Positions 9,070-35,039 of a stretch of 64,000 nt of DNA are shown one piece after another. Every line of letters begins with the position of its first letter. Position 1 is the stretch's first letter. The stretch is from Serripes groenlandicus. Its lineage: Eukaryota; Mollusca; Bivalvia; Cardiida; Cardiidae. A program made the position numbers and the translations under genes. The notes beneath the pieces were generated by a model. That model had not been told where the DNA came from. It ran no database searches and worked only from the letters and a program-made list of their open reading frames with translations. The stretch spans positions 202,200,390 through 202,264,389 of the forward strand of contig JASEVX010000001.1 of assembly GCA_031761405.1 (NCBI GenBank), given 5' to 3'.

Positions 9070-9100
<31 letters not shown>

Positions 9101-12100
9101 TATTTTGCCAATATGGCTATAGTGCAAACTTAAAAAATCTTCTCCTCCAAAAGTGTCAGGCCGATTTTCAAATAATTTTGTAGAAATGTTCCTTGGGTGA
9201 CCCTCTATCAGATTCCTTCAAGCCATGTTGATTGGTCGAAAAACATGGCCGCCAGGGGGCGGGGCTATTTTGCCTTATATGGCCAAAGTGAAAACTTAAA
9301 AAATCTTCTCCTCCGAAAGTGAGAAAGTAGTCAGTGGCTTCGAAAGAATGTTGTGTAAGTACTGGTGTGAGAAAGCCAGGAAAACATGGGAAGGTGCACT
9401 GACCGCCGTGATATGACCAAAGCTGTTGAAAGCGGCGTTAAACTCCAAACAAACAAACAAATCCTCCGAAAGTGTCAGGCTGATTTTCAAATAATTTTGT
9501 AGAAATGTTCCTTGGATGACCCTCTATCAGATTCCTTCAAGCCAAGTTGATTGGTTGAAAAACATGGCCGCCAGGGGGGCGGGGCTATTTTGCCTTATAT
9601 GGCTATAGTGAAAACTTAAAAAATCTTCTTCTCCGAAAGTGTCAGGCCGATTTTCAAATAATTTAGTAGAAATGTTCCTAGGGTGACCCACTTTCAGATT
9701 CCTTCAAGCCATGTTGATTGGTCAAAAAACATGGCCGCCAGTGGGCAGGGCTATTTTGCACTATATGGCTATAGTGAAAACTTAAAAAATCTTCTCCTCC
9801 AAAAGTGTCTGGCCGATTTTCAAATAATTTTGTAGAAATGTTCCTAGGGTGACCCTCTATCAGATTCCTTCAAGCCAAGTTGATTGGTCGGAAACTATGG
9901 CTGCCATGGGGCGGGGCTTATATAGGTAAAGTGAAAAAAAAAAATCAGGTGAGCGATTCCAGGGCCATCATGGCCCTCTTGTTTGACAAAATATGTTCAA
10001 AGTCGTCTGCTGCAGAATTATCGAATGAGGGAAAAGGTTAGCAGAAAGTATTATCTATATTTAAGGTTATTGCAGCAGATAAAGAACAGACCAGAGTTGA
10101 TGATGAAGTGTTAGGTTAGTATGCAACCAGATTCACCTAACATAGTAAATATTTGTTAATCTTTAAAACATTGGTGGATTGGTGGATTTGCTAACGTTAA
10201 GCTGTCAACATAAATTCTAGGTTGTCTAAATATATCGCTGGTACATTTATGAACATGTTAGCTGTGAACTGGGAGTCTTGATTTAACTGAATTACCATTA
10301 CAAGTATGTATACAGATTCACCTAACATAGGAAATGTTTGTTAAAAAACATGTGTGGTTTTGCTAACGTTAAGCTGTCAACATAAACTGTAGGTTGTCTA
10401 AATATACGGCTGGTACCTTTATGAACTGGGTGCCTTGATATAATTGAATTACCATTACAAGTATGTATACAGATTCATCTTATACAGTAAATGTCTGTTA
10501 ACAAATAATGGTGTAATTGCTAACGTTAATCTGTCAACATTAAATCTAGGTTGTCTATTATATACCCTTGGTACCTTTATAACATGCTAGCCAAACTGGG
10601 TGCCTTGATATAACTAAATATGAAAGTAAATGTATAATCATTGAATAGGGTTGAAAACATTGTTGCAAAAGGGAGAAATTGCTCATCCAGTATATGGGAA
10701 AGGATTAAACAATCAAAACTACATGCAAATTGGTTGTTCTGCTTATTTCTGTGAAACAGCATTTCTGAATTAGAATATTTCCCTTTATTTTCTGCTTTTA
10801 GCCTTTTCCCACAAGCAGAGGCAATTTGCACCAGACAGCTTTTAAAAACATTGTGGCTAAAAGAGAAATTGTTCATAATGAATACTGAAGCAATGAAGCA
10901 ATTTTTGAAAACATTTGGGCAAAAGAAAAAGTTGCTCATAATGAGCAATTTTTCATTTTGTTTCAATCTTTAAAATTTTATGCAATAATTGTTTATTTAT
11001 TTATATTGAAATTCCATAATTTTTGCTAAATGTTTTCCAAGTCATCTGCCGCAGATGTTATGCATGTAGGAAGGTGGTACACTGTGTTAACCCTTTCCCA
11101 CATTCAACAAATCTGTAGCAAACGACTTTTAGAACGTCTAAACAAAACAATGAAATGTCCCTGTAAATGAATGAAATATGACTGAAAAAAGTTGAAAACA
11201 TTGTGGCAAAAGGAGAAATTTCTCCATTTGCCACAATGTTTTCAAAAGTTTACTGCTGCAGAAACGTCAGAAAGCGTCTGTATAAGGGAAAGGTTTCATC
11301 AATAATATCTTGTACACTTTCAGCTGTACCTACTAAACCTGAACCGCCATTGTCAATGCCATGTGAGTCTTGTGCTGTGTTCCGGAGCCATAACAGCATG
11401 GTGCAGTGTTGCGATGGACACATGGTCTGTATGCTGTGTGTAGAGAAAGAAGCCAAACTAGTGATTACAGGGGCCAAAAAGGGATCTGTTGGGTGCTCCG
11501 TATCAGGGTGTAACAGTTCTATACCCCAGAGTGAGTTGAATTGTTGTTGCACTCCCCTTATTCAACCATTTTCCGCATACAGATGTACTTCTGAAGTCTT
11601 TATAGCTTGTCTGTTTTTCGAGGAAAAAAGTTAGGATATTGTGATGCCCTTGGCATCGTCACCGTCTGCGTCTTCTATGTCGACACATGACTTAAACCTT
11701 ACCTCATAACTCAAAACCCGTTCAACATTTTCGAATGAAACTTGCTACAAATGTTACTAGGAACAATACGCTATCTATACCAAGTTGTATCACTCGCTTT
11801 TATATTTTATATTCAGTAATTCCCCTTTTTCACAATGTTTTCAAAAATGTCTGCTGCAGAGGTGTCAGAAAGCTTCTGCATGTAGTAAAAAATGCTTCTG
11901 TAAGTGAGCACTGTCCCAGGAAAACTAACCATAGTGCAATAACGACTTGTTAACCATTTCCTACATATAACAAATCTGCAGCAGACAACTTTGAAAACAT
12001 TGATAAAAAAATATGAAAAATCTTTATAAATGAAGTTATAATTATTGAAAAAAGTTGAAAACATAATTATGAACAATTTCTCCTTTTGTCACAATGTTTT

Positions 12101-15100
12101 CAAAAGTCGTCGCTGCAGAGGCTTCAAAATGCATCAGCAAGTGGGAAATGGTTAAAGGGACTGAATCCCATATGAGAAAAAAGCGGAAAAAAAAGAAAAT
12201 TGTTAAAAATTGCTATTACCTTGATGTTTTTGCATGTAAGGCATTGAGATTTGCTGACTGATGTATAACAATATATGCACACTATTAATATTGTGGAGAT
12301 TTTTCGTTATTTTGCATTGTAAAATCTACTGGGTTAGTAACCCAGTAAATCTAAAAATATCGCTGTATATTTATCATGTGATCACTACAATCTCCTTCCC
12401 AGAGTTGTTGTTCCTTACACTCATGCATGCATGAATGTAATGAGTCGATAGTGTTAGAGAATGCCGAATTGAATCCACAAATTCAAATGAGCAAGAGGAA
12501 ATTCCACGGTATTTTTAAACGGGAAAACACGGAGCGGACGTTTTTTTAACTGCTTATTTCCTATGAAATAATGAAAAACAAGACTTGTACAACCTTCTAC
12601 AACATTCCGTTACATATATATCCAGGCCAATGATCTTCAAACTTGGTATGGACATACTTCATAGCAAGTTGGTGATGCCTACACAGTTTGGAGTCAGTAG
12701 GTCAAGGTTACTGTAACTTTCTATATAGAAACAGTTCATGGTTAAAGTTTTTGTGCAAGCTAGCATTTACCCTTATAACTAACATACACTTAGGCCTGTG
12801 ATCTTCAAGTTGGTTTTGCCTAGAGAGTTTAGAGTTACTAGGTCAAAGGTCAAGGTCACTGACCTTTCTGTAAATAAACAGTTAATGGTTAAAGTTTTTG
12901 TGAAAGCTAGCATTTACCCTTATAACTTACATACGCCTAGGCCTATGATCTTCAAACTTGGTATGGACATACATCATAGCAAGTTGGTGATGCCTATATA
13001 GTTTGGAGTCAATAGGTCAAAGGTCAAGTTCACTGTGACCTTCAATACAGAAACATTCCTTGCTTTAAAACTACTGATTGCTTAGGCCTATGACCCTGAA
13101 ACTTAGTTTGGGTAATGGTTATGATCAGCACTTGACTTATACAGGTCATGGAATCATAAGGTCAAAGGTCAAGGTCACTTTGACCTTTAATGAAAAAAAC
13201 ACTATTTTTTGCAATAACTTTGAACTAGTTGCATATGGTGCAAATTGTTGTGCAGTTACATTAAGAGTCCATATCTTAGTAACTACTTGATGCATTCCAT
13301 TGAAACGTTATAAAACCCTTCCCAACCATCACACCTATGAAAATAATCAAGTTAAATAACTCTATCCTGCATATAATGCAAATTATCACCCTTCACCCTT
13401 ATGTTTAGCATGCAACTACATTAGAGTCCATAATCTCAGTAATCAAATAAGAGGTGGAATAGTCGAACATGCTGTCCTCCGACAGCTCTTGTTTAGTTTC
13501 ATTGATTGCGAAACAAGCTTTCAGCTTATATAAATCACGCCCAATGTCCGATTCCTGGAGACATAACCAGTAATTGCGCTGTTTGTGGGGGAAAATCCCA
13601 AAGGCAGAACCCGCTCATCACAGGATTTGAATCCAGAACCTTTGGTACCTGAGGCCTTGTCTAAAGCTGCACCAATAGCTTCCATTGTACCTTATTTGTA
13701 AAACATCTGATTTGTGGAAAAACCAGATAAACTTAAATGTTTTTCACCTTTGTTTTCAAATGATCAATGAATTATTCAGGTGAATTACGGAAGGCTTTAC
13801 CAGGTATTGTGTTAGACCTTCTTGAAGAATCCTGGAAGAAAGAGACATTGGAGGCTCTAGAGAATATGAAAGATGGAGTCAAGTAAGTATTATACATTTG
13901 AGCCACTCTCTACTTTACACTTTTCTCACAGACAGGCGCTTTCTGACGCCTCTGCAGCAGACGACTTTTTCAAAAAGAGAAATTGCTAATAAATGAGCGA
14001 TTTCTCCATTTATCACAATGATTTTAACTTTATTCAATATTCATACTATCATTTTCTATATTTTTGCCTTGATAATTTTAAATTTGTCTGCTGCAGATTT
14101 ATTGTATTTTGGAAAGGCTTTTAAAATATTTAACAGTAAAGTTAAGGTTGTTTTTCCTGGAGCATTGCTCATTTGTTACAGCCCTTTCCAATATGCAGAG
14201 GCATTTTCTCGCATCTGCTGCAGACGACTTTTGAAGACATAGTGCTGTAATGAAAAACTGTTCATCATGATTCCACCTTTTCCCACAATGTTTTCAAGTG
14301 TGGTCTGCTGCAGAGGCAAATTTAAACGTTGTTTGTAATAAGTAATCTGTATGTTGTTAATCTTAATTGATAAAAATAACACATTTTTATTTAACTCTAT
14401 CCAAAAGTTAATTCTATTATTTATAAAGATTTTCGATATTTAACGAGTGTGCCATTATGACATAAAACTAACCCTTTGCTTTATATGCTTCTCTTACACG
14501 TTTTTAAATTGATATTTTTAGAGAAAAGGAACACATTTAGATTAGATTTACTTTTCAACAATGTTTCAAAAGTCTTCTGCTACAGATTGCAAAACTTATC
14601 TCGGCCATAATGATTTTTTAGCTCGACTTTTGAAAAAACGAGAGCTATTGTCATGACCCTGGCGTCGGCGGCGTGATCGTCCGGTTAAGGTTTTTTGTTT
14701 AGCTCATTTTTTTTTTTTTTCTGTTTTCTCCTTTTCAGTCGAGCGTATGTGCCGTACGCGGTGCTCTTGTTTATATTTCTGGCCATCCATCAACGATTCC
14801 TTTCAGTCAAAATCCAACAATTTAACCCCCCCCCCTTTCCAACATACAACAATTCTGCAGCAGACAACTTTGAAAACATACAGGCAAACATGTTGAAAAC
14901 CTCTACGAATGAAGGTTTACTTATTGGATAGAAGTGTCTATATATGGCTAGGACTAAAGCATGGCCAGATGGATTTAATTGAATCTTCAAATCTTCAAAG
15001 AAAGATTAGCCATTGCATTTAATGTTATTCTCTAGCTTTCATTAAGATTGCTAAGAGGAAAACAGGAGTTATGACCCGTTTCATTAGTTATTACCAATAT

Positions 15101-18100
15101 CAGTTGTCAACTTTTAAAAACATTGTAGCAAAAGGTGAAATTGCTCATGTAGAGCAATTTCCCCTTTTGCCACAGTGTTTGCAACTTTATTTAACAATTC
15201 AGCTATCTTTTATGGAGAATTTACATATTTTAGTCACCATGTATTCAAAGTCGTCTGCTGCAGATTTGCTGCATGTGGGAAGGGTTAATTTTCTTATTTA
15301 TATCTGTAGGTGTCCAGGATGTGGATATTCTGGTGTTCTTGAAGCTGCCATTAAAAATTTCAAATGCAGTAAATGTAAAAAGGTATGTGTAATAGAATGT
15401 TTCTTATTTACTTGTTTTTATTGTGTCACCCTACGTAGCATGGTAGGCACTTAGGGATTTTTTTTTTTGTCTGGCGTCTGTCTGTCTGTCTGTCCGTCAC
15501 ACTTTTTCGTCACATTTTTTCGTCACACTTTCAATGAGCAGTGCAGGTGACACACGTGCTCCGCGGAGCACTCCATTCTAGTTTTAATATGGGGATGCTT
15601 ATTCATACTATGGATACCTTGCCGGGTTATCCAATTGACTTGAAAATGGTAGTAATGGCTGCCCTCCTTGGCACTCAGGGTTTCAAGGTAAGCCTTACGA
15701 CTGACTGACTGGTGTCAGGATAATTGGACCATTTCTTAACCCTTTCCGACATACAACAATTCTGCAGCAGACGACTTTGAACATATTTTGTCAAAAAATA
15801 GAAAATCTCTATAATTGAATGGATAACCTATGTCTAAAAGTGGAAAACATTGTGGCAAAAGGAGAAATTGCTCGTTTTGAGCAATTTCTTCTTTTGTCAC
15901 TATGTTTTCAAAAAGCCGTCTGCTGCAGAGGCGTCAGAAAGTGTCTATATGTGGGAAAGGGTTAACTTACAGAGGAAACACCTGGATAAAACTGAAAAAC
16001 TGTAGAATGCGGCGTAAAACACCAAACAATCAATTAATCAATGCTTATTATATACTGCCCTGCTACTGAGCTAGCTTTTGTAGTAACATGATTTGGTTCA
16101 CCTTGAGGACAAGAGGTCCCGAGTTCAAGCCCCGGTTGGGTCAGACTTTTTCAGATGGGTTACATAATTATATTGTAATTCTACATCTTTCCAAATTTGA
16201 TGATTTAGAATGAGTAAATAGGGTGTCTGGTTTATATGACCCCTTCCCTGATGTATAAATTACATGATGCCTCTGATGCAGGTCAATATTCAAAACAATG
16301 TTGGAAAAGGAGAAATAGCTCATTATGAGCATTTCTCCTTTTTCCTTCAGTTAATACTGTTTTTCAGATGTTTATTGAAACCTTCTGTGACTAGTAAGAT
16401 GAACAGGTTGATCTGGATTGTCACTGGTCACAAATGCCCAAATATTGCTTTTATAAACCCTTTCCCACATACAGCAAATCAGCAGAAGATGACTTTAAAA
16501 ACGTAATGGGCAAAACATTTGAAAAATCTCCGTACATGAAAGTACAATAATTTGTCACAATGTTTTCAGAATTCGTCTTCTGCAGCGGCATCAGTAATCA
16601 GCTATATGTTGGAAAGGGTTAACCCTTTCCCTTTCCCTCATACGTTAATTCTGCAGCAGACGACTTCAAACATATTTTGTCAAAATATGGAAAAATCTCT
16701 ATAACTGAATGGATAACCTATGACTAAAAGTGGAAAACATTGTGTCAAAAGGAGAAATTGCACGTTTTGTGCAATTTCTTCTTTTGTCACTATGTTTTCA
16801 AAAAGCCGTCTGCTGCAGAGGCGTCAGAAAGCGTCTATATGAGGGAAAGGGTTAAGCCACCATTATTATATTGTTTTGTCATTAACAGAATTATTGTCGA
16901 CTGTGTGGGATGGAATGGTCCCAAAAACAACATGACCTCTGTGTTAAGATGACCAAGAAAGTCTCGGAGGCGACAGGACATACTATAAATATACCAGCTC
17001 ATTGGGTCATAGATCCAAACACGGAGATAGAAATGGTTTGGAATTTTTGTTTATTCTGAGCTGTCCTGTTTTGCCTGATATGGCTATATTGGAAAACTAA
17101 AAAAAAATTATCTTCAGAACATATTGTTCCATTTTAAATTAAATTTGTCCAATTTATTTCTTCAAAAAAAATAAATCATGGACATAACTGGTTGGACAAA
17201 AACCATGGACATAAGTGGTTTGACACAAACTATGGACATAAGTGGTTGGTGCTCTTAATCCTCATATTTGAAAACTTACATGGTATCAGCTAATCTTTAG
17301 CCGGATTGCTCTAGCAATTCCGGTCTATAGATTGGCGATGTCCATCCGTCTGTCTGTCCGTCAACATTTTGGTTAAAGTTTCAGGTTGAGGCAAAATCTC
17401 AGCACTGGAAAGGGTTACAAACTGGAAACTTTGCCTGAAGGTAACCAGTAACAAGTTCTATTGATTTCTATGGTTACTTTGAATTCCGGTCTATAGATTT
17501 GCGATGTCCGTCCGTCTGTCTGTCTGTCCGTCAACATTTTGGTTAAAGTTTCAGGTTGAGGCAAAATCTCAGCACTGGAAAGGGTTACAAACTTGAAACA
17601 TTGCCTAAAGGTAACCAGTAACAAGTTCTATTGATTTCTATGGTTACTTTGACCTTGACCTTGGTTTGTCGATTTTCAAGGTCAAATTGCCGACAATCCG
17701 GCCTTACCGTCTTCAGCGGTTTCTTGTTTAATATATGTAACTTGAATGTTCATAGGGTGATCGTCTAACAGATTATGCAATGTTGATTGGTAAAGAAACA
17801 TATCTGCCTGGGGGGGTGGTCTATTTTGTTTAACCATTATGCCTATAGTGAAAACATTAAATATTTTCTTCTCAGAATATATCTTGTGTAAATGGATCAT
17901 TGGTCCATATAGTCGCCAGCCAGGGGGTGGGTTTCTTTTGCCCAAAGTGTAAACTTTTAGAATGTTATCTCATAACAAAACCCCAGTCTGATTTGAGATC
18001 GTTTATCATAAATATCTATCTTGACCCATTGGTTTTCTGAAGTCACATTAAACCTTTCCCAAGTATAATATAGAAAATCTTCCAAAATGAAGACTTACTT

Positions 18101-21100
18101 ATTTCTATTAGAAACTTTCTGACGCCTCTGCAGCAGACGGCTTTTTGAAAACATAGTGACAAAAGAAGAAATTGCTCAAAACGAGCAATTTCTCCTTTTG
18201 ACACAATGATTTCCAACTAAGAGTGATAGGTTATCCATTTAATTATAGAGATTTTCTATTTTTTGACAAAATATGTTCAAAGTCATCTGCTTCAGAATTG
18301 TCGTATGAGGGAAAGAGTTAAATAGAGTTGAAAACATTGTGTCAAAAGGAGAAATTGCTTGTTTTGAGCAATTTCTTCTTTTGTCACCAAGTTTTCAAAA
18401 GTAGTCTGCTGCAACATTTAAGTCAAACATATGTAAGCTCTCTATTAAAGATAGAACAATTACTGAATTAAGTTGAAAACATTGTGGCAATAGGAGAAAT
18501 TGCTTGTTTCGAGCAATTTCTTCTTTTTGCCACAATCTTTTTATAAGTGGTCTGCTACAGATCATGTGTCAGAATGCGTCTGTAGGTGGGAAAGTGTTAA
18601 ACTCTTTCCAACCTACAGCAAAACTACAGCAGATGACTGGAAATAATTTTATGGTTTCATGCAAATCGGTTGTAACTTCATCTTGAATAAGATGTAGTTA
18701 CAACTGTTTTGCATGAAGCCCTCGAATTGAGGAAAAAAGCAGAAATCCACTACTGATGACTGTTTAATTTCAATATAGAGTAGAAAACATTATGGCAAAT
18801 GGAGAAATTGCTCATGATGAGCAATTTATCCATTTGCCATACTGTTTCCAAAAGTCGTCAGCTGCAGAAACGTCAAAATGCTTCTACAATTGGGAAAGGG
18901 AAATAACTAAACAATTATAATTATATCTGACAGGGTTACTCCATAGTAGAACTGGACCAAATGTGTGACGAGTCTTTAGATGTAATGGCGGCGTTTTCCC
19001 AATCTCTAACAGCTGACCCTTGCACTGTAAGCAAAATCTATAGAATACAGAACCAGAGGCTCTGGGAGAAATATAGCTTGTAAGTCAAATTTTAGTGCAT
19101 ACACTTTAAACCTTTCCCTCTTGCTGACTTTAGGAGTAATAAAGCTTGTAAGTCAAATTTGAGTCTGTACACTTTAGCTCTATCCCGCACACAACAAACC
19201 TGCAGCAGACCACTTTGAAAACACATAGGCTTAAAAATGGAAAATCTCTTTAAATGACAGTATAATTACTGAACAAAAATGAAAACAGTGTGGCAAATGG
19301 ATAAATTGCTCATTTTGACCAATTTCTCCTTTTGTCACTATGTTTTCAGACATCATCTGCTTCATAGAAGTCAGAATTCGTCTATATGTGAGAAAGGGTT
19401 AACACTTTCCCTCTTGCAGGCCCTGGGAAAAATAAAGCTTCTAAGTCATAGTTTAGTCTTTACACCCTAACCCTTTCCTACAAACAGATGATTTCTGATG
19501 CCTCTGTAGTAGAGGCGTCAGAAAGTGTCTTTATGTTGATAAAAAGGTAGATTTGTTAATAGAAAAATGATGGGAATTTTAAGCGTTTATTCACAGCACA
19601 TATTATATATGAAGTTACAAACAAAATATTTATCATGTAACAATTTTTGTCTCGTTGGGTAAAGAAGTGAAAGCGATACTAAGCTGTTGCTTTGTTGGTG
19701 ACTTCGTCAAACATTTTCGTTAAGCTCAAAGTTAAAAGTTTGGATGTTTTATATTTCCCCAAAGAGTACAAGTACTAACCCTTTCAAACTTGGATCATAG
19801 TTACATCTTATATCCTTCATTATGCCTTCAATGCTGGGTGACTGCTTCACTGTTTTCTAGATTAACCTATTCCCACCTAGACCATGGACGCATTTTGACA
19901 CATTTTGATACATTTGCAGCGGATGACTTATGAAAACATTGTGACGAAATTGCGCATAATGAGCAATTTTTCCTTTTGCCACAATGTTTTCAACTCTATT
20001 CATTAATTATAGTTTATTTTAAAGAGATTTTCCATATTTTTGCCAAGTAATTTCCAGATTTACTCTGTATGTGGGAAAGGGTTAACTTGATTTTAACACT
20101 TGCAGTTAGATTACAATAGGTGACAGGAAAAACGTATAATTACACATAATTCTGTTTAAGATTTAAATTGCTAGTGACCAAAGGAGCTTTTTATGCCTTT
20201 CCAACAATAATCAAATCTTCAGCAGATGACTTGTAAAAATAAGTGAAAAGTACATAAAGTCTACATGAATTATGATATAGCTTTTGAGCAATTTTACCTT
20301 TATTGAGCAATTTTACCTTTTTGAGCAATGTTTTCAAGAACTGTTTGTTAACCCTTTCCCTCATACGACAATTCTGCAGCAGACGACTTTGAACATATTT
20401 TGTCAAAAAATAGAAAATCTCTATAATTGAATGGAAAACCTACGACTAAAAGTGGGAAACATTGTGGCAAAAGGAGAAATTGCTTGCTTTGAGCAATTTC
20501 TTCATTTGTCACTATGTTTTCAAAAAGCAGTCTGCTGCAGAGGCATCAGAAAGCGTCTATATGAGGGAAAGGGTTAATGATAAATCAAGTGTGAAACTAA
20601 TTATTATTTATCACGACCTACAGGTTCAGAACTCACATGACTCAGGATATTGGGGAACTTCAGATAAATGAGAGGAGATTGTTTCATGGCACACACAATG
20701 ATGTAATAGACAGTATATGTAAGGAGGGTTTTGATTGGAGGCTGAGTGGTAAACATGGAACAGTTTTTGGACATGGTATGTATAATGATACTAGGTCAAA
20801 ATAGGTATAATAGGGCACAGTACACAATGATTATATGGATATGCCTTGGTGTTGTAGTGGTAGAGCTTCTTCCGTGGTTGCGAGGGGTCACAGGTTTGAT
20901 GACAGACTCGTTGGTGTCAGGATAATGGACCAGAAGTACTGGCATTGCAGTGATATTTACAACTGAGTTATTGTTGAAAGTGGGGTGAAATACCGTGCAA
21001 ACTATTTGATTAGAGGGTTTTGATTGCAGGTGCATTGGTTTATGTGGTAAATATGGAACTGTTTTGGAAATAATATGTATAATAATAGGTCACAGGGGTG

Positions 21101-24100
21101 TTATAATAGGGCACAGGACACAGTGATGTAATTGACAGTAAGATTGTTTTTATTGGAGAATGTATTTGTAAGGAGGGTTTTGATTGGAGGTTCAACGGTT
21201 TATGTGGTAAACATTAAACTGTTTTGGAAACAATATGTGTAATAATAGGTCACATGGGTGTTATAATAGGGCACAGTACACAGTGATATAATTGACAGTA
21301 AGATTGTTTTGATTGGAGATTGTATTTGTAAGGAGGGTTTTGATTGGAGGTTCAACAGTTTATGTGGTAAACATTGAACTGCTTTGGAAACAATATGTGT
21401 AATAATAGGTCACAGGGACGTTATAATAGGGCACAGAACACAGTGATGTAATTGACAGTAACATTGTTTTGATTGGAGATTGTATTTGTAAGGAGGATTT
21501 TGATAGAAGATAAACTTGTTTATGTGGTAAACATAACCACCAGGGACTGTATTTGGACACAATATGAGCCGTTCCTTGAGAAAACCAACATTATGGAATC
21601 TGCGTAATGTATCGACCCAGATCAGCCTGCACAGTCCATGCAGGCTAATCTGGGCCGACACATTCCGTCTCAGAGGTATAGAGTAATGATTCCTGAAACA
21701 GAAATTCCACAGGAGGCGAAAATTGTCTGTCCGGGTTAGCCTGCACGGCATACTTAGGCTAATCTGGCTCGATGCTTTACGCAGAGTCAACAATGTTGGT
21801 TTTCTCGATAGAGGGCTCATATGTATAATAATAGGGCATAGTACATACTGACGTTATAGACAGAAGGAAAGTTTTGATTGGCATTTATATGGTATGTGGA
21901 ACTGTATATGGGCATGTTATGTATACATCACTGTACCAGGAATATACATTTATATGGTATGTGGAACTGTGTATGGGCATGTTATGTATATGTCACGGTA
22001 CCAGGAATATACATTTATATGGGCATGTTATGTATATATCACGGTACCAGGAATATACATTTATATGGTATGTGGAACTGTGTATGGGCATGTTATGTAT
22101 ATATCACGGTAGGTACCAGGAATATACATTTATATGGTATGTGGAACTGTATATGGGCATGTTATGTATACATCACGGTACCAGGAATATACATATTATC
22201 TATGTCTCTGATGAATGATAAATACCCCTTCGTAGCTGTTTGATCGCTTCGAGCCGAGAGCTCTCGTAAAATGTCTTCTGAGAACCTGATATATAAGTTT
22301 GGAACCGAAGGCTAGTCAAGTTAGACGCACAGGTTTTTAGCTTGTCTATTCAAAGAATAAGAAGGGCTTTTGCAGATAAAAATTGTGAAATCTTGAATGT
22401 CAACTTTTTATAAAAAAAGATCAAAATCATGGTTGGAAAAAGATGAATTACTCTTCTGAGCAATTTATCTTTTTCCCACAAAGTTTTCAAAAGTCTTCTG
22501 CTGAAGAGTCTTTTAAAGTTGTCCGTATGAAAGAAACATTATTATATTCATCAAGATTGAATGTTATGAAAGTTGTGATGATTTTTTTTTTCCCATTGAT
22601 TTTAAGCTCTCAGAATATTTTTTTCCAGGAACTTATTTTGCTAAAGATGCAAGATATTCCACAAAATATTCCTCAAAAAATGGTTTACAATGGTTACCGC
22701 CTAAGAGCAATGATGCAGGTAGGAAAATGTTACACTTGCAGATACATATTGACACAATCATAAAACTTTTGAAAATAATTTACCAATGAGATACTGTGAT
22801 ATTGGTAATTTACCAAGTGAATACCATTCTATAAGTAATTTACCAATGGAATACAGTGATTTTGGTAATTTGCCATGTGAATACCATGTTATAAGTAATT
22901 ATAGGAGTCGCGCTTGTCGGTTTGTCGGTCCGTTGGTCTGTAGACATTTCTTGTGAACACTATTTCTCAGCAACCCTTGGTCAGAATTCAATATAACTTC
23001 ACAAGAATAATTGATACCAAGCCTAATTGTGCATATTGTCGGCGTGTTGCACTGGAATTATTTTTAAATAAGTTATGGCCCCTTGAATTTTTCATACATA
23101 AGTATATTGTCAGGCACCAGCTGGGGGTATTCATCACCTTCAGTGATATTTCTAGTGAATACCATGCTTTAAGTAATTTACCAATGGGATACTTTGATGT
23201 TGGTTATTTACCAATGGGATACTGTGATATTGGCTTTAAGTAATTTACCAATTGGATACCAATTGGATACTGTGATATTGGCAATTTTCCAAGTGAATAC
23301 TAGGATATAAGTAATTTACCAAGGGAATACTGTGATATTGGCAATTTGCCAGGTAAACACTAAGATATAAGTAATTTACCAATGGAATACTTTGATGTTG
23401 GTAATTTACCAATGGTATACTGTGATAATGGTAATTTACAAATGGAATACTGTTCTATAAGTTATTTACCGAGGGAATACTGTGATATTGGTAATTTACA
23501 AATGGAATACTGTTCTATAAGTTATTTACCGAGGAAATACTGTGCTATTGGTAATTTACCAATGGGATACTTTGATGTTGTTTATTGTCTCGCCCACGAT
23601 AGTGGAGTGAGACATAACAGTCACTTTTCCGGCGACGGCGACGGCGGCCGCTTTTACAAATAGCTATATCTCGGCAACCCCTGCTTGAATTTTTCTGAAG
23701 TCAAGGTCATAATTGTGCAGAACTTGACCTTTGTTAGGTAACTTAACCTCAAAACTTAACCTTTCTTATATCTCAGCAACCCCTGCTTGAATTTTTCTGA
23801 AACTTTGTCAGATGTATTGTTTGATCATGGGACATCTGTCAGCGTCAAAATGTTCAGGGTCAAGGTCATAATTGTGCAGAACTTGACCTTTGTTAGGTAA
23901 CTTAACCTTTCTTATATCTCAGCAACCTCTGCTTGAATTTTTCTGAAACTTTGTCAGATGTATTGTTTGGTCATGGGACATCTGTCAACGTCAAACTTTT
24001 CAGGGTCAAGGTCATAATTGTGCAGCACTTGACCTTTGTTAGGTAACTTAACCTCAAAACTTAACCTTTCTTATATCTCAGCAACCTCTGCTTGAATTTT

Positions 24101-27100
24101 TCTGAAACTTTGTCAGATGTATTGTTTGGTCATGATAATCTGTCAACGTCATAATTTTCAGGGTCAAGGTCATAATTGTGCAGAACTTGACCCTTTCTTA
24201 TATCTCGGCAACCCCTGCTGGAATTTTTCTGAAACTTTGTCAGATGTATTGTTTGGTCATGGGACATCTGTCAACGTCAACATTTTCAGGGTCAAGGTCA
24301 TAATTGTGCAGAACTTGACCTTTGTTAGGTAACTTAACCTCAAAACTTAACCTTTCTTATATCTCAGCAACCCCTGCTTGGATTTTTCTGAAACTTTGTC
24401 AGATGTATTGTTTGGTAATGGGACATCTGTCAACGTCATAATTTTTAGGGTCAAGGTCATAATTGTGCAGAACTTGACCCTTTCTTATATCTCAGCAACC
24501 CCTGCTGGAATTTTTCTGAAACTTTGTCAGATGTATTGTTTGGTCATGGGACATCCATCAACGTCAAAATTTTCAGGGTCAAGGTCATAATTGTGCAGAA
24601 CTTGACCTTTGTTAGGTAACTTAACCTCAAAACTTAAAACTTTCTTATATCTCAGCAACCCCTGCTGGAATTCTTCTGAAACTTTGTCAGATGTTATGTT
24701 TGGTCACACTTACATCAAACTTTTCAGGGTCAAGGTCATAATTGTGCAGCACTTGACCTTTGTTAGGTAACTTAACCTCAAAACTTAACCTTTCTTATAT
24801 CTCAGCAACCTCTGCTTGAATTTTTCTGAAACTTTGTCAGATGTATTGTTTGGTCATGATAATCTGTCAACGTCATAATTTTCAGGGTCAAGGTCATAAT
24901 TGTGCAGAACTTGACCCTTTCTTATATCTCGGCAACCCCTGCTGGAATTTTTCTGAAACTTTGTCAGATGTATTGTTTGGTCATGGGACATCTGTCAACG
25001 TCAACATTTTCAGGGTCAAGGTCATAATTGTGCAGAACTTGACCTTTGTTAGGTAACTTAACCTCAAAACTTAAAACTTTCTTATATCTCAGCAACCCCT
25101 GCTGGAATTCTTCTGAAACTTTGTCAGATGTTATGTTTGGTCACACTTACATTTTATCAACTTTACTTTCTTTTTGCATAGTGATACCATTTAATATCTG
25201 ATTTTCTTAGAAGGGCGAGACACCCTCAGCCCGAGGTCTTGTTTAGCAATGGAATACTTTGATGTTGGTAATTTACCAATGGAATACTTTGTTGTTGGTA
25301 ATTTACCAATGGAATACTGGGATGTTGGTAATTTACCAATGGAATACTTTGATGTTGGTAATTTACAAATGGAATACTGTGATGTTGGTAAGTTACAAAT
25401 GGAATACTGTGACATTGGTAATTTACCAAGTGAATACCTTTCTATAAGTTATTTACCAATGGAATACTTTGATGTTGGTAATTTACCAATGGAATACTGT
25501 GATGTTGGTAATTTACCAATGGAATACTGTGATGTTGGTAATTCACAAATGGAATACTGTGATACTGGTAATTTACCAAGTGAATACCATTCTATAAGTT
25601 ATTTACCAATTGAATACTTTACAAATGGAATACTGTGATGTTGGTAATTTAAAAATGGAATACTGTGATGTTGGTAATTTACAAATGGAATACTGTTCTA
25701 TAAGTTATTTACCCAGGGAATACTGTGCTATTGGTAATTTACCAATGGGATACTTTGATGTTGGTTATTTACCAATGGAATACTTTGATGTTGGTAATTT
25801 ACCAATGGAATACTGTGATGTTGGTAATTTACAAATGGAATACTGTGATACTGGTAATTTACCAAGTGAATACCTTTCTATAAGTTATTTACAAATGGAA
25901 TACTTTGATGTTGGTAAATTACCATGGAATGCTGTGATATTTGTTACTTTACCAATGTAATACTGTGATATTGGTGGTTATTTACCAATGTAATACTGTG
26001 ATATTGGTGGTAATTTCCAATGTAATACTGTGATCTTGGTTATTTACCAATGTAGTGATATTGGTGGTAATTTACCAATGTAATACTGTGATATTGGTGG
26101 TAATTTCCAATGTAATACTGTGATATTGGTTATTTTCCAATGTAATACTGTGATATTGGTGGTAATTCACCAAGTGAATACTAAGCTATTAGAAATTTGC
26201 CAACTCACTATCATGCTATTTGTCATTAATGATTAAGAAAGGGCATTCCATGCTCTATATAAAATAGTGTTGGGAGCCGCATGAAACACCATTCAAAGTA
26301 TCTTACTAGCATTGATCAAAACAATCCTAGAAAAAAAAACTTTCTCAAATGCAAACACACTTGCAGAACATGACTATTGAATACATTGTGGCAAAAGGAG
26401 AAAGTGCTAATTTTTATTTTCAACTCTTATCAATAATTATACTTTCATCCATAGAGACTTTTCCTAAATTTGCTTTTTTTTTACAGTCATGCCACAATGG
26501 ACCAGTGAGGGCGCTTCAAGAAAATCAGGACCAAGCTTTCCTCCCAGTTACACTCAGTCGATGCAATTTAATGTTTTAACAGGGCAAGCCCCGGGCGTAA
26601 CTCACACATTTACAGGAACCCCACAGCCCGTATTCCCACCCTCATCGATCTCCTCACAATCGTCGCAACAATCAACTTTCAATTCTAGTAACACTTTCGC
26701 AAGTGGTTGTTGGAGTAGTTTACCAGTGTCCAGTACACCAGTGACTTCAGTGTTGCCTCACAACTTGTCCAACATTAATCCTAGTGTTTATGTCTTTTCT
26801 GCTAATCCAAGCACAGCCACAAAGAAGATGAAAACAAGAGTTGTTGATCCATCTATTATTTCTTTACGACGAAAACCCCCAGGTAAATCAATGTCTTCTT
26901 CGACATCCGCCACAGCTGCGTTTAACAGTGCTGTAGGATTATCTGTGACTTTGCCCTCTTTTAATCCTGCATTGAGTACCTCAAGTTCAACCTCCACTAA
27001 TGCATCAGTTTGGCCTCCTGTGCCTTCTTTAATGACTTCAACTAGCTCTTCCATAAATATCAATACATTCAATCCTGGTTCTAATCAGGGTTTTGTCTAT

Positions 27101-27376
27101 AGACCGAAATCAACATTTTCGTTGGATCCTTCAATGCAGTCAAGCCTTTTGGTACAACCTTTTATCAACAGTTGGCCCTCTGGTGGCAGTTACATGTACA
27201 TGTTTGTTGCGCGAGTATTGGTGGGTAAAAAGTGTGTTGGTAAAGGTGAAATGAGGCGCCCGGATGGAGATGCTCATACGGCTGTCGATCATGTGAGACA
27301 TTCGCGAATTTATGTGGTCTTTGAGAAGGGGCAGTGTTATCCTGAATACCTTATTGAATATTCAAAGAACAAATGA
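2469..27376 (+). CDS. RING1-IBR-PARP chimeric protein, 13 exons, 5' partial
   Basis: Joined exons: 2469-2579, 3347-3454, 5126-5484, 7384-7435 (or 7384-7503), 10076-10114, 11324-11530, 13780-13882, 15310-15382, 16889-17035, 18934-19079, 20624-20775, 22629-22718, 26487-27376. All junctions are GT-AG and the phases agree, giving 824 visible residues. Order: acidic disordered N-terminus (1-220), RING1 of RNF216/TRIAD3 type (236-283), IBR (327-368), then a PARP catalytic domain from about 385 to the end with H469, Y501 and I803 as the H-Y-I triad, which in known PARPs goes with mono-ADP-ribosylation. No RING2/Rcat is present. Residues 530-760 are a Ser/Thr/Pro-rich insert within the PARP fold. Inferred role: ADP-ribosylation coupled to ubiquitin-pathway binding, perhaps in stress or antiviral response as for PARP9-DTX3L; this is not shown by sequence. 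The upstream start lies outside the window. Confidence 0.85.
2640..2860. mobile_element. TTAACCC MITE, diverged left end
   Basis: The left end is degenerate (CCATTAACAATAAATCTGCAG). The internal hairpin is well preserved and the right end is GTGGGAAAGGGTTAG. It lies in the intron between exons a and b. Confidence 0.65.
3347..3454 (+). CDS. Exon b of RING1-IBR-PARP gene
   Basis: Acceptor ATATTTTTAG, donor AAAG|GTATTT, phase 1 on both sides. Encodes an acidic segment (ESIPDYEEIEDDVNVTITS and onward). The same phase and similar composition as the exons on each side suggest short acidic repeats (EEIEDD recurs at the start of the next exon). Confidence 0.65.
3729..4285. repeat. Tandemly amplified MITE left half plus one full MITE
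   Basis: AACCCTTTC recurs at about 3729, 3845, 3961 and 4077 (roughly 116-bp period); each unit holds only the left half of the MITE plus a short unrelated piece (CATCTGCCTCTACCC). The last unit continues into the hairpin and right end. Intronic. Confidence 0.75.
4578..4972. mobile_element. TTAACCC MITE, full copy followed by a truncated copy
   Basis: The full copy (4578-4807) has intact TTAACCCTTTCCCTCAT ends and the long hairpin. The second (4808-4972) lacks its left end and starts at AGCAGACGGCG, so the two share or overlap a boundary. A SINE tail (CAAGAATGTTGTGTGGAGAG) follows to about 5060. Confidence 0.75.
5126..5484 (+). CDS. Exon c of RING1-IBR-PARP gene
   Basis: Acceptor CTTTTTTAG, donor CAG|GTATGC, phase 1 in and 0 out. 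About 120 residues, hydrophilic and probably disordered, opening with DGEEIEDDIGIEV, a near repeat of the previous exon's EEIEDD block. No recognised domain. The open frame over 359 bp in AT-rich DNA is good evidence for coding. Confidence 0.7.
5514..5728. mobile_element. TTAACCC MITE directly after exon c
   Basis: Starts about 30 bp after the exon c donor with degraded TAATCCTTTCCC and ends AAAGGGTTAA. The hairpin GTGGCAAAAGGAGAAATT pairs with AATTTCTTCTTTTGTCAC. Confidence 0.7.
6391..6684 (+). mobile_element. tRNA-derived SINE, second copy, with 24-bp tail repeats
   Basis: Same A box (TGGTCGAGTGGTTAGC), B box and CTTGGGCAAGGCAC body as the copy at 2196. The 3' part has the AAAGCGGCGTAAAACCCCAA module seen in other SINEs here. 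It is followed by three copies of a CAGATAGCCTATTTTAAGTT unit (6617-6684). Confidence 0.75.
6813..7018. mobile_element. TTAACCC MITE with poly-T insertion
   Basis: TTAACCTTTTCCC left end, CTGCAG boxes, and a right end degraded to GGAAAAGCATTAA. A run of about 17 T interrupts the right half. Confidence 0.6.
7078..7345 (-). mobile_element. tRNA-derived SINE (second family), reverse orientation
   Basis: Read on the minus strand: ATGGTGTAGTGGTAGAATGT (A box), GGAGG, GGTTCCATCCCC (B box), then the shared tail module ATGGTAGTAATGGCTGCTCT, GACTGACTGGCT and a CACCAAACCATCAATCAATC end. Related copies are at 15590, 20842, 40490, 49127 and 59365. Confidence 0.8.
7384..7503 (+). CDS. Exon d of RING1-IBR-PARP gene (two possible donors)
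   Basis: Acceptor TGTTTTACAG. The short form ends at 7435 (TAG|GTAAAG), leaves phase 1 and joins in frame to the exon at 10076. The long form ends at 7503 (CAG|GTAATG), leaves phase 0 and adds a basic stretch (GKGKRSTMGTTRIKSSGKT); it would need a further exon that I do not see, or would end early. Confidence 0.55.
7524..7920. mobile_element. TTAACCC MITE plus partial second copy
   Basis: The full copy spans 7524-7750 (AACCCTTTCCCACAT to GGGAAAGGGTAA). From 7765 to 7920 there are fragments of a further copy (GCAGCAGAGGAC, CAATTTCTCCTTTACC). Lies 20 bp after the long donor of exon d. Confidence 0.65.
7921..8537. other. Intronic DNA with MITE fragments, no gene seen
   Basis: Includes a CA-rich stretch near 8035 and a degraded MITE right half (8430-8540). 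I see no exon-like segment with matching phase, although one would be needed here if the long form of exon d is used. Confidence 0.4.
8538..10040. mobile_element. Composite: MITE interrupted by pearl-like element
   Basis: The MITE left part (8538-8709) runs through the hairpin to GAGATTTTCCATTTTT; the pearl-like element fills 8710-9981 (AGCTCACCTG... to GGCCCTCTTGT); the MITE resumes TTTGACAAAATATGTTC and ends GGGAAAAGGTTA. The pearl core has about six units of roughly 166-170 bp. A SINE tail (9315-9462) is inserted in one core unit. A run of 29 G lies at 9071-9099. Confidence 0.8.
10076..10114 (+). CDS. Micro-exon e of RING1-IBR-PARP gene
   Basis: A 39-bp exon with acceptor TTATTGCAG and donor TTAG|GTTAGT, phase 1 on both sides, encoding ADKEQTRVDDEVL. 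It fits exactly between the short form of exon d and the RING1 exon. Because it is a multiple of three with equal phases it could be skipped without breaking the frame. Support is splice sites and phase only. Confidence 0.4.
   Translation, partial: QIKNRPELMMKC
10115..10620. repeat. Three intronic tandem copies, about 160-185 bp
   Basis: ATTCACCTAACATAG-type blocks start near 10131, 10316 and 10475, each followed by GCTAACGTTAAGCTGTCAAC and AGGTTGTCTAAATATA. The array begins at the donor site of micro-exon e. No coding character. Confidence 0.7.
10800..11300. mobile_element. Cluster of TTAACCC MITE copies before the RING1 exon
   Basis: Two or three nested partial copies (10800-11080) and one short full copy (11091-11300, TTAACCCTTTCCCACATTC to GGGAAAGGTTT). 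The last ends about 24 bp upstream of the RING1 exon, so its right end forms part of that intron's branch-point region. Confidence 0.65.
11324..11530 (+). CDS. Exon f: RING1 domain (RNF216-like)
   Basis: Acceptor ACACTTTCAG, donor CAGA|GTGAGT. Encodes a RING1 with C-x2-C near residue 236, then MVQCCDGHMVCMLC (Cys, His and Cys-x2-Cys ligands), then a later C-x4-C pair and NSSIPQSEL. Order and spacing follow human RNF216 (TRIAD3), whose RING1 has a C-x-DAH-x2-C-x2-C core and the same SIP/SFP-x-SEL ending. In RBR ligases RING1 binds the E2-ubiquitin conjugate. Confidence 0.85.
11600..12160. mobile_element. Element fragment and two MITEs after the RING1 exon
   Basis: 11620-11760 holds a GATGCCCTTGGCATCGTCAC palindrome followed by the usual 'GAAACTTGCTACAAATGTT' core of short pearl-like elements. 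11815-11900 is a MITE right half; 11950-12156 is a diverged full MITE with AACCATTTCCTACAT and GGGAAATGGTTAA ends. Confidence 0.55.
12161..12599. other. AT-rich intron with a degraded fold-back element
   Basis: 12388-12440 carries CTTCCCAGAGTTGTTGTTCC then CTTACACTCATGCATGCATG, a decayed relative of the perfect palindrome at 49161. Otherwise no gene or repeat recognised. Confidence 0.4.
12600..13495 (+). repeat. Pearl-like element with 'AGGTCAAAGGTCAAGGTCAC' cores
   Basis: Three to five degenerate core units of about 130-190 bp, each with TGATCTTCAAACTTGGTATG and a GTCAAGGTCACTGTGACC-like stretch; the right end is AACATGCTGTCCTCCGACAG then CTCTTGTTTA. Same architecture as other elements here, different core. 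Small open frames inside are repeat shadows. Confidence 0.65.
13780..13882 (+). CDS. Exon g: RING1-IBR linker helix
   Basis: Acceptor AATTATTCAG, donor GTCAA|GTAAGT. Encodes ELRKALPGIVLDLLEES and a further Glu/Lys-rich helix, matching the SELEKVLP-type helix that follows RING1 in RNF216. Phase 1 in and 2 out. The next exon completes the lysine codon immediately before the IBR. Confidence 0.8.
13911..14330. mobile_element. Two TTAACCC MITEs after exon g
   Basis: First copy about 13911-14120, with CTTTCTGACGCCTCTGCAGC and a decayed right end. Second copy about 14178-14330, truncated on the right after TGGTCTGCTGCAGAGGC. Confidence 0.6.
14621..14772 (+). repeat. Short pearl-like element remnant
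   Basis: Begins TAGCTCGACTTTTGAAAAAA, then ACGAGAGCTATTGTCATGAC, GTCC-rich, and ends CGGTGCTCTTGTTTA. Ends typical of the family, almost no core. Confidence 0.5.
14826..15290. mobile_element. TTAACCC MITE with internal insertion, ending at exon h
   Basis: Left end CCCTTTCCAACATACAAC after a C run; the hairpin (15121-15180) is well preserved; right end GTGGGAAGGGTTAA, ending 20 bp before the IBR exon. About 200 bp of unrelated DNA lies within. Confidence 0.6.
15310..15382 (+). CDS. Exon h: first half of IBR
   Basis: Acceptor TATCTGTAG, donor AAG|GTATGT. Encodes CPGCGYSGVL and FKCSKCKK, the first two Cys pairs of an IBR; RNF216 has CPSC and FSCPNPHC in the corresponding places. Confidence 0.85.
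15440..15733 (+). mobile_element. Short GTCTGTCTGTCC element and SINE 3' fragment
   Basis: 15440-15585: TACGTAGCATGGTAGGCAC..., GTCTGTCTGTCCGTC, ending CGTGCTCCGCGGAGCACTCC, a short element of pearl-like form. 15600-15733: tail of the second SINE family (ATGGTAGTAATGGCTGCCCT, GACTGACTGGTGTCAGG) without its tRNA head. Confidence 0.55.
15736..15965. mobile_element. TTAACCC MITE, well preserved
   Basis: A 230-bp copy with intact TTAACCCTTTCCGACAT and GTGGGAAAGGGTTAA ends and a near-perfect hairpin around GCTCGTTTTGAGC. One of the cleanest copies and a good reference for the family. Confidence 0.85.
16075..16145 (+). mobile_element. Partial tRNA-like SINE head
   Basis: GTCCCGAGTTCAAGCCCCGG is a B-box-like block with weak A-box remains upstream. 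Too diverged for a functional tRNA. Confidence 0.4.
16456..16855. mobile_element. Two abutting TTAACCC MITEs before exon i
   Basis: The first (16456-16620) lacks the hairpin's left arm. The second (16618-16855) is complete with TTAACCCTTTCC and GAGGGAAAGGGTTAA ends. They share the TTAA between them. The pair ends 33 bp before the fusion exon. Confidence 0.75.
16889..17035 (+). CDS. Exon i: end of IBR joined to start of PARP domain
   Basis: Acceptor CATTAACAG; donor ATG|GTTTGG is the weakest in the gene. The exon completes the IBR (NYCRLCGMEW, then QKQHDLC supplies the last Cys-Cys-His-Cys ligands) and, after about 15 residues, reads NIPAHWVIDPN, which resembles the LPAHW entry into PARP14-type catalytic domains. 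IBR and ART lie in one exon, so the fusion is direct. In RNF216 this position leads to RING2, which is absent here. Confidence 0.85.
17298..17960 (+). repeat. Pearl-like element (CCGGATTG ends) and a core fragment
   Basis: 17298-17731 starts TAGCCGGATTGCTCTAGCAA and ends CAATCCGGCCTTACCG then GGTTTCTTGTTTA; it has two core units of about 165 bp with CTGTCCGTCAACATTTTGG. 17740-17960 holds diverged 'TGATTGGTAAAGAAACAT' core DNA of the 166-bp family. Intronic. Confidence 0.6.
18051..18905. mobile_element. Run of TTAACCC MITE copies before exon j
   Basis: At least three copies: about 18051-18321 (good hairpin), 18327-18600 (with a second hairpin embedded) and 18597-18905 (hairpin GCAAATGGAGAAATTGCTCA with its complement). 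The last ends about 30 bp before exon j. Confidence 0.65.
18934..19079 (+). CDS. Exon j: PARP domain N-terminal part
   Basis: Acceptor TATCTGACAG, donor AGCTT|GTAAGT. Encodes GYSIVELDQM and later KIYRIQNQRLWEKYSL, the conserved segment of PARP7/11/12/14 catalytic domains (typical form: I-x-R-I/V-Q-N-x2-L-W-x2-Y) that precedes the donor-binding strand. Confidence 0.9.
19110..20085. mobile_element. MITE copies and fragments between exons j and k
   Basis: 19110-19400 contains a MITE whose left flank (AATAAAGCTTGTAAGTCA) copies the donor region of exon j, so exon-end sequence was duplicated with it (again near 19430). A further copy lies at 19862-20085. 19550-19860 is AT-rich with nothing recognised. 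Confidence 0.55.
20348..20577. mobile_element. TTAACCC MITE, intact, next to PARP exon k
   Basis: TTAACCCTTTCCCTCATACG to GAGGGAAAGGGTTAA, 230 bp, with TTAA at both ends. It ends 46 bp before the catalytic-histidine exon. Confidence 0.85.
20624..20775 (+). CDS. Exon k: PARP domain with catalytic histidine
   Basis: Acceptor GACCTACAG, donor CATG|GTATGT. Encodes NERRLFHGTHNDVIDSIC, containing the NAD-binding H-G-T histidine (H469), and GFDWRLSGKHGTVFGHG, the G-K-x-G-T-x-[FY]-G block before the catalytic tyrosine. Degenerate copies of its last roughly 85 bp plus the donor site recur in the following intron. Confidence 0.93.
20842..20995 (+). mobile_element. Degenerate tRNA-derived SINE (second family)
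   Basis: GTTGTAGTGGTAGAGCTTCT keeps the A box; the B box is eroded (AGGTTTGATGA). The tail GGTGTCAGGATAATGGACCA and GTTGAAAGTGGGGTGAAATA is recognisable. Confidence 0.6.
20996..21561 (+). repeat. Intronic tandem repeats derived from PARP exon k
   Basis: Three to four units of about 160 bp share long blocks with the end of exon k and its following intron: GGAGGGTTTTGATTGGAGG, GGTAAACAT..GAACTGTTTT, ATAATAGGGCACAGTACACA. They contain stops and no longer encode the PARP motif. They arose by local duplication of exon plus donor. Confidence 0.7.
21562..21822. mobile_element. MITE of a second family, TIR ATATGAGCC
   Basis: Left end ATATGAGCCGTTCCTTGAG, continuing AAAACCAACAT, repeats inverted at the right end with only a few mismatches over about 30 bp. 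Inside are palindromes around GCCTGCA...TGCAGGC. Length 261 bp, no coding. 27620-27700 holds a possible fragment of the same family. Confidence 0.75.
21840..22200 (+). repeat. 65-bp tandem array, likely derived from exon k
   Basis: Five units with TATATGGTATGTGGAACTGT, GGGCATGTTATGTAT and CACGGTACCAGGAATATACA. The first unit follows GATTGG and aligns with the exon k end (GATTGGAGG... TGGTAAACATGGAACAG ... GACATGGTATGTA). Open in several frames only because the unit lacks stops; not a gene. Confidence 0.65.
22629..22718 (+). CDS. Exon l: PARP domain with catalytic tyrosine
   Basis: Acceptor TTTTTTTCCAG, donor GCAG|GTAGGA. Encodes GTYFAKDARYS; Y501 is the second triad residue and matches GSYFARDASYS of PARP12-type enzymes. 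It continues TKYSSKNGLQWLPPKSNDA, where family members soon enter the [MF]-F-[LV]-A-[RK]-V-L strand; here that strand is postponed to late in the last exon. Confidence 0.92.
22899..23155 (+). repeat. Short pearl-like element inside the minisatellite
   Basis: ATAGGAGTCGCGCTTGTCGG to CTTCAGTGATATTTCTAG. A second copy at 42154-42477 has a fuller left end (ATACCCCCAGATACATAG) and a longer GGTCGGTCGGT run, so this copy is truncated on the left. Confidence 0.7.
23587..25246 (+). repeat. Pearl-like element with eight or more 'TCAGCAACCCCTG' cores
   Basis: Starts GTCTCGCCCACGATAGTGG and ends GGCGAGACACCCTCAGCCCG then GTCTTGTTTAG, with GTCTCGCC/GGCGAGAC as inverted ends. Core units of about 120-180 bp hold TTGAATTTTTCTGAAACTTT and TCAAGGTCATAATTGTGCAG. 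Inserted into the 30-bp minisatellite. No gene. Confidence 0.8.
26340..26460. mobile_element. TTAACCC MITE fragment before last exon
   Basis: GACTATTGAATACATTGTGG and CAAAAGGAGAAAGTGCTAAT are the hairpin's left arm; both ends are gone. Confidence 0.5.
26487..27376 (+). CDS. Last exon m: Ser/Thr/Pro-rich insert, then PARP C-terminus
   Basis: Acceptor is a T-run followed by ACAG, and the frame is open for 296 codons to TGA. Residues about 530-760 are low-complexity, rich in Ser, Thr, Pro, Asn and Gln, with a basic patch (KKMKTR, LRRKPPGK) that could act as a nuclear signal. Then the PARP fold resumes with YMFVARVLVGKKCVG, RIYVVFEKGQCYPEYLIEY and the stop. I803 in RIYVVF stands where PARP1 has its catalytic Glu, giving H-Y-I. 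An AATAAA at 27507-27512, inside a MITE, is a possible poly(A) signal. Confidence 0.92.
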
Positions 27377-28104: not shown

Positions 28105-28150
28105 TGTTTTCAAAGTTGTCTGCTTTAGGTTTGTTGTATGTCGGAAAGGG

Positions 28151-28911: not shown

Positions 28912-29147
28912 CAGGAATGTATTATGGGTGGACCTTTATAAAAATTGCTCAATCAATCTCGATTTGTCTGTAAATTTTGCTTCCAGGGGGAGCAGGTAGT
29001 TGGCTTGAAGTAAAAACTTTGAAAGTTTTTCACAGACCATTTCGCACTGCTTCAAACAACTCAAAACATTTCGGAAAAAGTAGGAATTTCTGTATTTAAC
29101 TATTTCTTTCATTCATAGAGAATCTAAATGACCCTTGTTTTATTATA

Positions 29148-29693: not shown

Positions 29694-29706
29694 ATATTGT
29701 TACTTA

Positions 29707-35022: not shown

Positions 35023-35039
35023 AGATAACGACTCGAGCA

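Follow-up and report, generated by a model that had tools for sequence, protein, structure and literature searches.

RNF216 (TRIAD3), a RING-between-RING (RBR) ubiquitin ligase, and the ADP-ribosyltransferases (ARTs) PARP12, PARP15, PARP14 and PARP11 were the closest described relatives of a gene encountered in the bivalve Serripes groenlandicus, within a stretch of 64,000 nucleotides (contig JASEVX010000001.1, positions 202,200,390 to 202,264,389), which is called the window and is numbered from its first nucleotide. This one gene, rebuilt from genomic DNA and referred to below as the chimera, is predicted to join an RNF216-derived RING1-linker-IBR half to a PARP12-like ART, without RING2. 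With RNF216 it shares RING1, linker, IBR and intron sites around and within the IBR, but it lacks RING2 and the catalytic cysteine, displays PARP in the place of RING2, and does not keep the residues C517 and Y519, places at which RNF216 contacts the ubiquitin-conjugating enzyme (E2). With the four PARPs it shares PF00644, the H-Y-hydrophobic residues and the fold (as compared on a homologue), but it displays no WWE, CCCH or macrodomain match, has RING1-IBR in front and carries a large low-complexity insert after the catalytic tyrosine.

Other couplings of the two systems were less similar in layout. PARP9-DTX3L likewise brings together an ART fold and a RING-type domain, but it consists of two proteins with RING and DTC domains, whereas the chimera is a single chain with an RBR-type RING1-IBR; the ART of PARP9 is given as inactive in the available text of PMC13224862. 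Ubiquitin machinery and PARP do share one chain in the Dictyostelium U-box-macro-PARP (DDB0232928) and in UBCc-PARPs of fungi, moss and an alga, but these display a U-box or an E2 domain, other PARP clades or layouts and no RBR parts, as far as the available portions of PMC2964712 and PMC4245714 go. PARP10 is a PARP with ubiquitin-binding elements (ubiquitin-interacting motifs), but it has no RING or IBR and, according to the same portion of PMC4245714, is confined to vertebrates. The term IBR did not occur in PMC2964712, PMC4245714, PMC12687431 and PMC13224862, and no RING1-IBR-PARP protein was found in the literature searched, subscription papers and supplements lying outside that scope. Within that literature, the statement of an earlier note on this DNA that no animal PARP of this layout had been described holds. 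The sequences were already public and the architecture, as far as searched, undescribed, two known families being newly united with loss of a catalytic domain.

The gene occupied positions 11324 to 27376 of the plus strand, where eight exons joined into 601 codons and a stop in a single frame (Table 1). All seven internal junctions were GT-AG with matching phases, and the predicted chain displayed RING1, linker helix, IBR and PARP catalytic domain in this order. The earlier note had proposed such a gene with all exon phases matching and with 11324, 20775 and 27376 as its landmarks; each of these was an exact exon boundary in the rebuilt gene and the phases agreed. It had also considered that a RING2 exon might be spliced in between IBR and PARP. 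This was excluded by exon 16889-17035 (E8), which alone codes for the last IBR ligands and then for the beginning (P..W) of the PARP region, leaving no place for a RING2 to be spliced between the two. E8 aligned across the join with residues 383-429 of the Ruditapes protein (40 % identity, with a gap of one residue on either side of it). When the RING2 exon of the RNF216 gene from the same genome was used as query, no match in the window rose above chance level (best 16.9 bits), and the RING2 cysteine-spacing pattern was present on neither strand; a spliced-in RING2 was rejected on the grounds of E8 and of this pattern.

It is very improbable that two adjoining genes, or a pseudogene, were read here as one. 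The model does come from genomic DNA alone and the link between upstream exon E4 and E5 is unproven, but the join lies inside a single exon, the 601 codons hold no stop, and homologous proteins were present in at least seven species. Two short contigs, those of P0006 (2023 bp) and P0013 (962 bp), coded without a break across several exon borders of the window gene and appear to be spliced RNA. The architecture, a single gene with RING1-IBR-PARP and no RING2, was supported by the join exon, by predicted homologues in at least seven other species and by the RING2-bearing RNF216 gene of the same genome.

In the RING1-IBR half, alignment recovered all eight zinc ligands of RING1 (CESC, C-DGH, CMLC, C-C) and all eight of the IBR (CPGC, CSKC, CRLC, HDLC). 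RNF216 (7m4m, 8eb0) was the best solved relative of this half (E 1.1e-15, residues 12-151); a family profile of eight rows gave RNF216 at E 1.8e-26, followed by ARIH2 at 7.4e-07. Judged by sequence, the half is closest to RNF216 among solved structures, and the RNF216-like RING1, linker helix and complete IBR ligands described in the earlier note were recovered. In Pfam, the isolated half passed the cut-off for IBR (PF01485; 25.6 versus 24.3) and missed it for IBR_1 (26.9 versus 27), while the whole chain stayed under both (22.6 and 24.1). The linker helix exon (13780-13882) was the most conserved of the window pieces aligned to Mercenaria, with 88 % identity. Structure predictions were too poor with eight rows (pLDDT, the predicted local distance difference test, 44) and left the domain arrangement unreadable with 16 rows (pLDDT 68, predicted template modelling score 0.47). 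No RNF216 chains were among the fold-search matches listed, which the PARP domain filled, and the RING1-IBR part was hardly probed by that search.

The PARP half scored 79 bits with PF00644 (cut-off 26.7, E 4.6e-22). Its best structure match was PARP12 (2pqf, E 4.9e-30), followed by PARP15, PARP14, PARP13 and PARP10, in agreement with the PARP7/11/12/14-type domain named in the earlier note, and the ART fold was recovered in a comparison made on a homologue. Catalytic residues were His246, Tyr278 and a hydrophobic (non-Glu) third residue, at what we take to be the third place of the triad; by these H-Y-hydrophobic residues the half is predicted to belong to the mono-ART subclass. A Ser/Thr/Asn-rich low-complexity insert of about 249 residues divided the domain after the catalytic tyrosine. 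An insert also interrupts the domain at this position in Mercenaria, Mizuhopecten, the unionids, Lingula and a paralogue from the same genome. Neither WWE (PF02825) nor DTC gave a Pfam match in the window core, E1-E4, P0001-P0003, P0005, P0006 or P0009-P0012. The inserts of Mercenaria (P0002) and Potamilus (P0011) held 10 FG pairs each, of which eight and four were of the FxFG/GLFG kind; among 1000 shuffles, these FG counts were reached four and zero times, respectively, and the FxFG/GLFG counts never. The window insert held no FG pair. A nuclear-pore link is possible from the FG-like inserts and a Nup98 GLEBS match in P0006.

The Serripes genome also contained an RNF216 gene with RING1, IBR and RING2 exons (contig C1074, about 31,218,2xx-31,247,3xx, minus strand). 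Once joined, its exon peptides gave E 5e-51 against solved RNF216 over a match that takes in RING2, and the runner-up, ARIH1, reached 3e-4. Within the IBR, this gene and the chimera have an intron of identical place and phase (0), with both sides visible. Two further sites were shared with one side visible, namely a phase 1 donor that ends the RING1 exon behind P-[KQ] and a phase 2 acceptor immediately in front of the first IBR cysteine; a search for the RNF216 linker exon that should lie between these sites was unsuccessful. One RING1-internal intron of RNF216 was missing from the chimera. In the PARP half, the phase 2 intron after W-E-K-Y-S-L was common to another PARP gene of this genome (L006). 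Both halves thus retained parental intron traits, a pattern that replacement of the 3' end of an RNF216 copy by PARP exons would be expected to leave and that points to an origin of the chimera by such a fusion.

A paralogue was found at C1:242.794-242.815 Mb. It displayed a 602-codon open frame holding the RING1 start, a linker-helix exon that starts like window exon 13780 and continues with an acidic stretch at the IBR place and then P-D-N-W, and PARP exons with a Ser/Asn-rich insert like that of the window gene; its RING1 donor would need a GC site or an unusual GT. No further RING1 or IBR sites were present elsewhere among the 42 matches listed, the best candidates of the own-genome search. 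The match at C2:10528992 was considered as an RBR and rejected, being by eye a RING/B-box-like frame in a partly masked locus. At least 58 exon-level PARP matches were counted in this genome (1.76 Gb), several of them clustered (C1074:125.5 Mb, C113:33.4 Mb).

The earlier note had proposed a search for the architecture in bivalve proteomes; two homologue searches yielded predicted RING1-IBR-PARP proteins in bivalves, a gastropod and a brachiopod. They came from Ruditapes philippinarum (P0001, partial, PARP cut short), Mercenaria mercenaria (P0002, 986 residues), Mizuhopecten yessoensis (P0009), Sinanodonta woodiana (P0010), Potamilus streckersoni (P0011), the gastropod Gigantopelta aegis (P0003; a second protein, P0005, is without RING1) and the brachiopod Lingula anatina (P0012). 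P0006 displayed RING1 and PARP with the IBR undetected, and its GLEBS match (two stretches) lay in front. A first homologue search gave eight proteins under E 0.001 among 1108 candidates and a second at least 19 among 7992 scored, the remaining rows of both being PARPs of other layouts or fragments; the RING1-IBR of P0012 alone, used as query against 414 candidates, retrieved only itself. Database labels of the chimera proteins were uncharacterised, hypothetical or PARP-like. RING1 ligands were complete in all nine rows reaching RING1, P0006 included. Pfam IBR_1 was over the cut-off in P0001, P0002 and P0009 and under it in P0003, P0005, P0010 and P0011, and P0012 gave no IBR match. RanBP2-type zinc fingers in the unionids P0010 and P0011 stayed under the cut-off (22.9 and 21.8 versus 27 bits).

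In a PARP tree of 18 rows, the chimeras and fragment P0013 grouped at 88/91 with the paralogue next at 80/91, neither with starred support. P0001 and P0006 had been dropped for missing C-termini and P0004, P0017-P0019 and P0023 left out; P0020, its tail trimmed at the wrong YP-motif, was 48 % filled, and P0022 was without a C-terminal match. Since the grouping falls short of firm support, a single origin of the chimera family is favoured rather than established; if single, the fusion would date back at least to the split between molluscs and brachiopods.

With RING2 and its catalytic cysteine missing, the chimera would be unable to function as an RBR ligase. On balance we lean towards a mono-ART, rather than a ubiquitin ligase, that is guided by a ubiquitin-reading, RNF216-derived half. 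Linker helix and IBR, which bind allosteric ubiquitin in RNF216, would dock ubiquitin or ubiquitylated partners, and the ART domain, tethered at the place of RING2, would put a single ADP-ribose on ubiquitin, on the ubiquitylated target or on itself. More tentatively, an ancient swap of catalytic domains may have turned a ligase scaffold into a single-chain ADP-ribose writer of lophotrochozoans: whereas RNF216 places ubiquitin over a RING2 cysteine, the altered scaffold would place ubiquitin or a ubiquitylated target above the ART site; we regard this wider reading as possible and rather doubtful.

The RING1 residues bear on which partner would be bound. Across eight aligned chimera RING1s, the C517 place was taken by S, A, S, Y, S, N, N and S and the Y519 place by A, E, E, G, K, P, P and S (none aromatic), whereas the RNF216 of the same genome keeps C and F. 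In RNF216, C517A is tolerated and mutation of Y519 reduces activity. E2 binding or modification by the chimera is weakened by these changes, and because the E2-contact places are not kept, the ubiquitin-reader model is favoured over the E2-ubiquitin version of the earlier note; ubiquitin reading by the RING1-IBR half appears plausible. The same losses, together with the IBR undetected in the paralogue and P0006, would also suit a RING1-IBR that keeps the fold or binds targets with no ubiquitin or E2 role, the protein being a PARP12-type mono-ART with an odd N-terminal half. This is unlikely given RING1 ligands complete in nine of nine rows, IBR ligands complete in eight of nine, and a linker helix so similar between window and Mercenaria.

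A further arrangement acting in cis, in which E2-ubiquitin is recruited by RING1 and its ubiquitin is discharged onto ADP-ribose attached by the ART, seems improbable; it would yield ADP-ribose-linked ubiquitin as a single-chain counterpart to the action of separate ligases on PARPs. RING1 ligands and the hydrophobic helix residue (V/I) are retained, and the available parts of PMC12000418 and PMC12583694 describe ubiquitin esterified to ADP-ribose, in cells on PARP7; but RBR RING1 domains keep E2-ubiquitin open and block direct discharge (available part of PMC9834252), zinc loop II has the same length (4) in the chimera and in RNF216, no DTC domain was matched and the E2-contact residues are changed. 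Somewhat more improbable is a decoy, a catalytically dead RNF216 paralogue competing for E2-ubiquitin, K63 chains or RNF216 substrates with the ART as second activity: a RING2-bearing RNF216 is present in the genome and the chimera has lost RING2, but competition for E2 is unlikely because of the same changed residues.

Several points weigh against the ubiquitin-guided mono-ART. The protein is predicted and known here from genomic DNA alone, and the residues with which RNF216 contacts ubiquitin could not be placed on its sequence. The exception among the IBR rows, Gigantopelta P0003, displayed Tyr for the His ligand. RING1 and PARP occurred with the IBR undetected in the own-genome paralogue and P0006, so that the full ubiquitin site is not retained in every family member. 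CUE-like, SIM-like (SUMO-interacting motif) and RanBP2-type matches of the homologues were sub-threshold or weak: a CUE-like stretch, picked by eye upstream of RING1 in scallop, unionids and Lingula, had the CUE of TOLLIP as best PDB match (E 0.055), and a SIM-like pattern in five of seven homologues also arose in 11-34 of 500 shuffles for three of them and in 126-176 for two. E1-E4 of the window displayed no such pattern.

The gene probably starts upstream of 11324. E1-E4 (2469-7503) formed one frame of 232 residues and resembled the acidic N-termini of venerid proteins in order and in the KGKGK motif (best E 1.4, not significant). E1 matched Ruditapes residues 46-92 at E 41, not significant, and E4 aligned with a KGKGK stretch that precedes RING1 by about 50-65 residues in Ruditapes and Mercenaria (E 2.3 and 3.2). 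Direct joining of E4 to E5 was ruled out by their phases, 0 at the end of E4 and 1 at the start of E5; one further exon is needed if both belong to the same gene. A strict splice-site filter returned none in 7504-11323, and under a relaxed filter 10066-10114 ranked second of 85 candidates, without homology support. The corresponding stretches of P0001 and P0002 scored no better there than in the control region 28000-40000 (25 versus 37 and 33 versus 33). Homologue searches of the 10 kb upstream gave no match at E 0.1, and neither a first exon nor a start codon was found.

Table 1. Exons and candidate exons of the chimera gene and other open frames of the window
Feature	Position	Strand	Content	Support
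E1	2469-2579	+	acidic N-terminal region; membership likely	AG/GT ends, frame open with E2-E4
E2	3347-3454	+	upstream exon	phase fits E1 and E3
E3	5126-5484	+	upstream exon	phase fits E2 and E4
E4	7384-7503	+	upstream exon, KGKGK motif	in frame with E1-E3
Candidate E4-E5 link exon	10066-10114	+	49 nucleotides, needed phase 0 to 1	splice-site likeness
E5	11324-11530	+	RING1, 8/8 zinc ligands	frame, structure match, alignment
E6	13780-13882	+	RING1-IBR linker helix	identity with Mercenaria
E7	15310-15382	+	IBR first half, 4 Cys	end phase 0, like own-genome RNF216
E8	16889-17035	+	IBR second half (CxxC, HxxC) and start of PARP region	Ruditapes alignment
E9	18934-19079	+	N part of PARP catalytic domain	end phase 2, like PARP gene L006
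E10	20624-20775	+	PARP, catalytic His (LFHGT)	75 % identity with Mercenaria and Ruditapes
E11	22629-22718	+	PARP, catalytic Tyr (GTYFA)	exon model and PARP alignment
E12, first part	26487-27199	+	Ser/Thr/Asn-rich insert within PARP domain	insert at same place in relatives
E12, end	27200-27376	+	PARP C-terminal strands, YPEYLIEY, stop	aligns with PARP12 QVYPEYVIQY
KN-type homeodomain frame	37519-38817	-	open frame	Pfam Homeobox_KN, E 7e-12 to 9e-13 over the three frames
KN-type homeodomain frame	45312-46475	-	open frame	as above
KN-type homeodomain frame	56356-57612	-	open frame	as above

Degenerate tandem part-copies of E10 (CKEGFDWR...GKH) were present at 20989-21555, where tblastn identified four, all interrupted by an in-frame stop; the array had a 160-base unit in 3.3 copies (21013-21534). 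The intron before the last exon consisted mostly of tandem arrays (22776-26160), with a unit of about 30 bases (TTTACCAATGGAATACTGTGATGTTGGTAA) and another of about 127-437 bases. A dispersed element around TTTTCAAAAGTCGTCTGCTGCAGAGGCGTCAGAAAGCGTC was seen by eye in many copies across the window, mostly between exons. The three similar long KN frames, with the homeodomain near their end, formed a tandem homeobox cluster downstream of the chimera gene. Rfam gave nothing at gathering cut-offs.

The cross-talk of ubiquitin and ADP-ribose is under active study, and its known animal partners, PARP9-DTX3L as well as PARP7 and the ligases that attach ubiquitin to its ADP-ribose, occur as separate proteins. 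In the chimera the two protein-marking systems would have been joined at least once, with the catalytic domain of a ligase swapped for another enzyme. This makes it testable whether the ubiquitin site of a RING1-IBR may work independently of ligase chemistry, and whether mono-ARTs may have ubiquitin or ubiquitylated proteins among their natural substrates.
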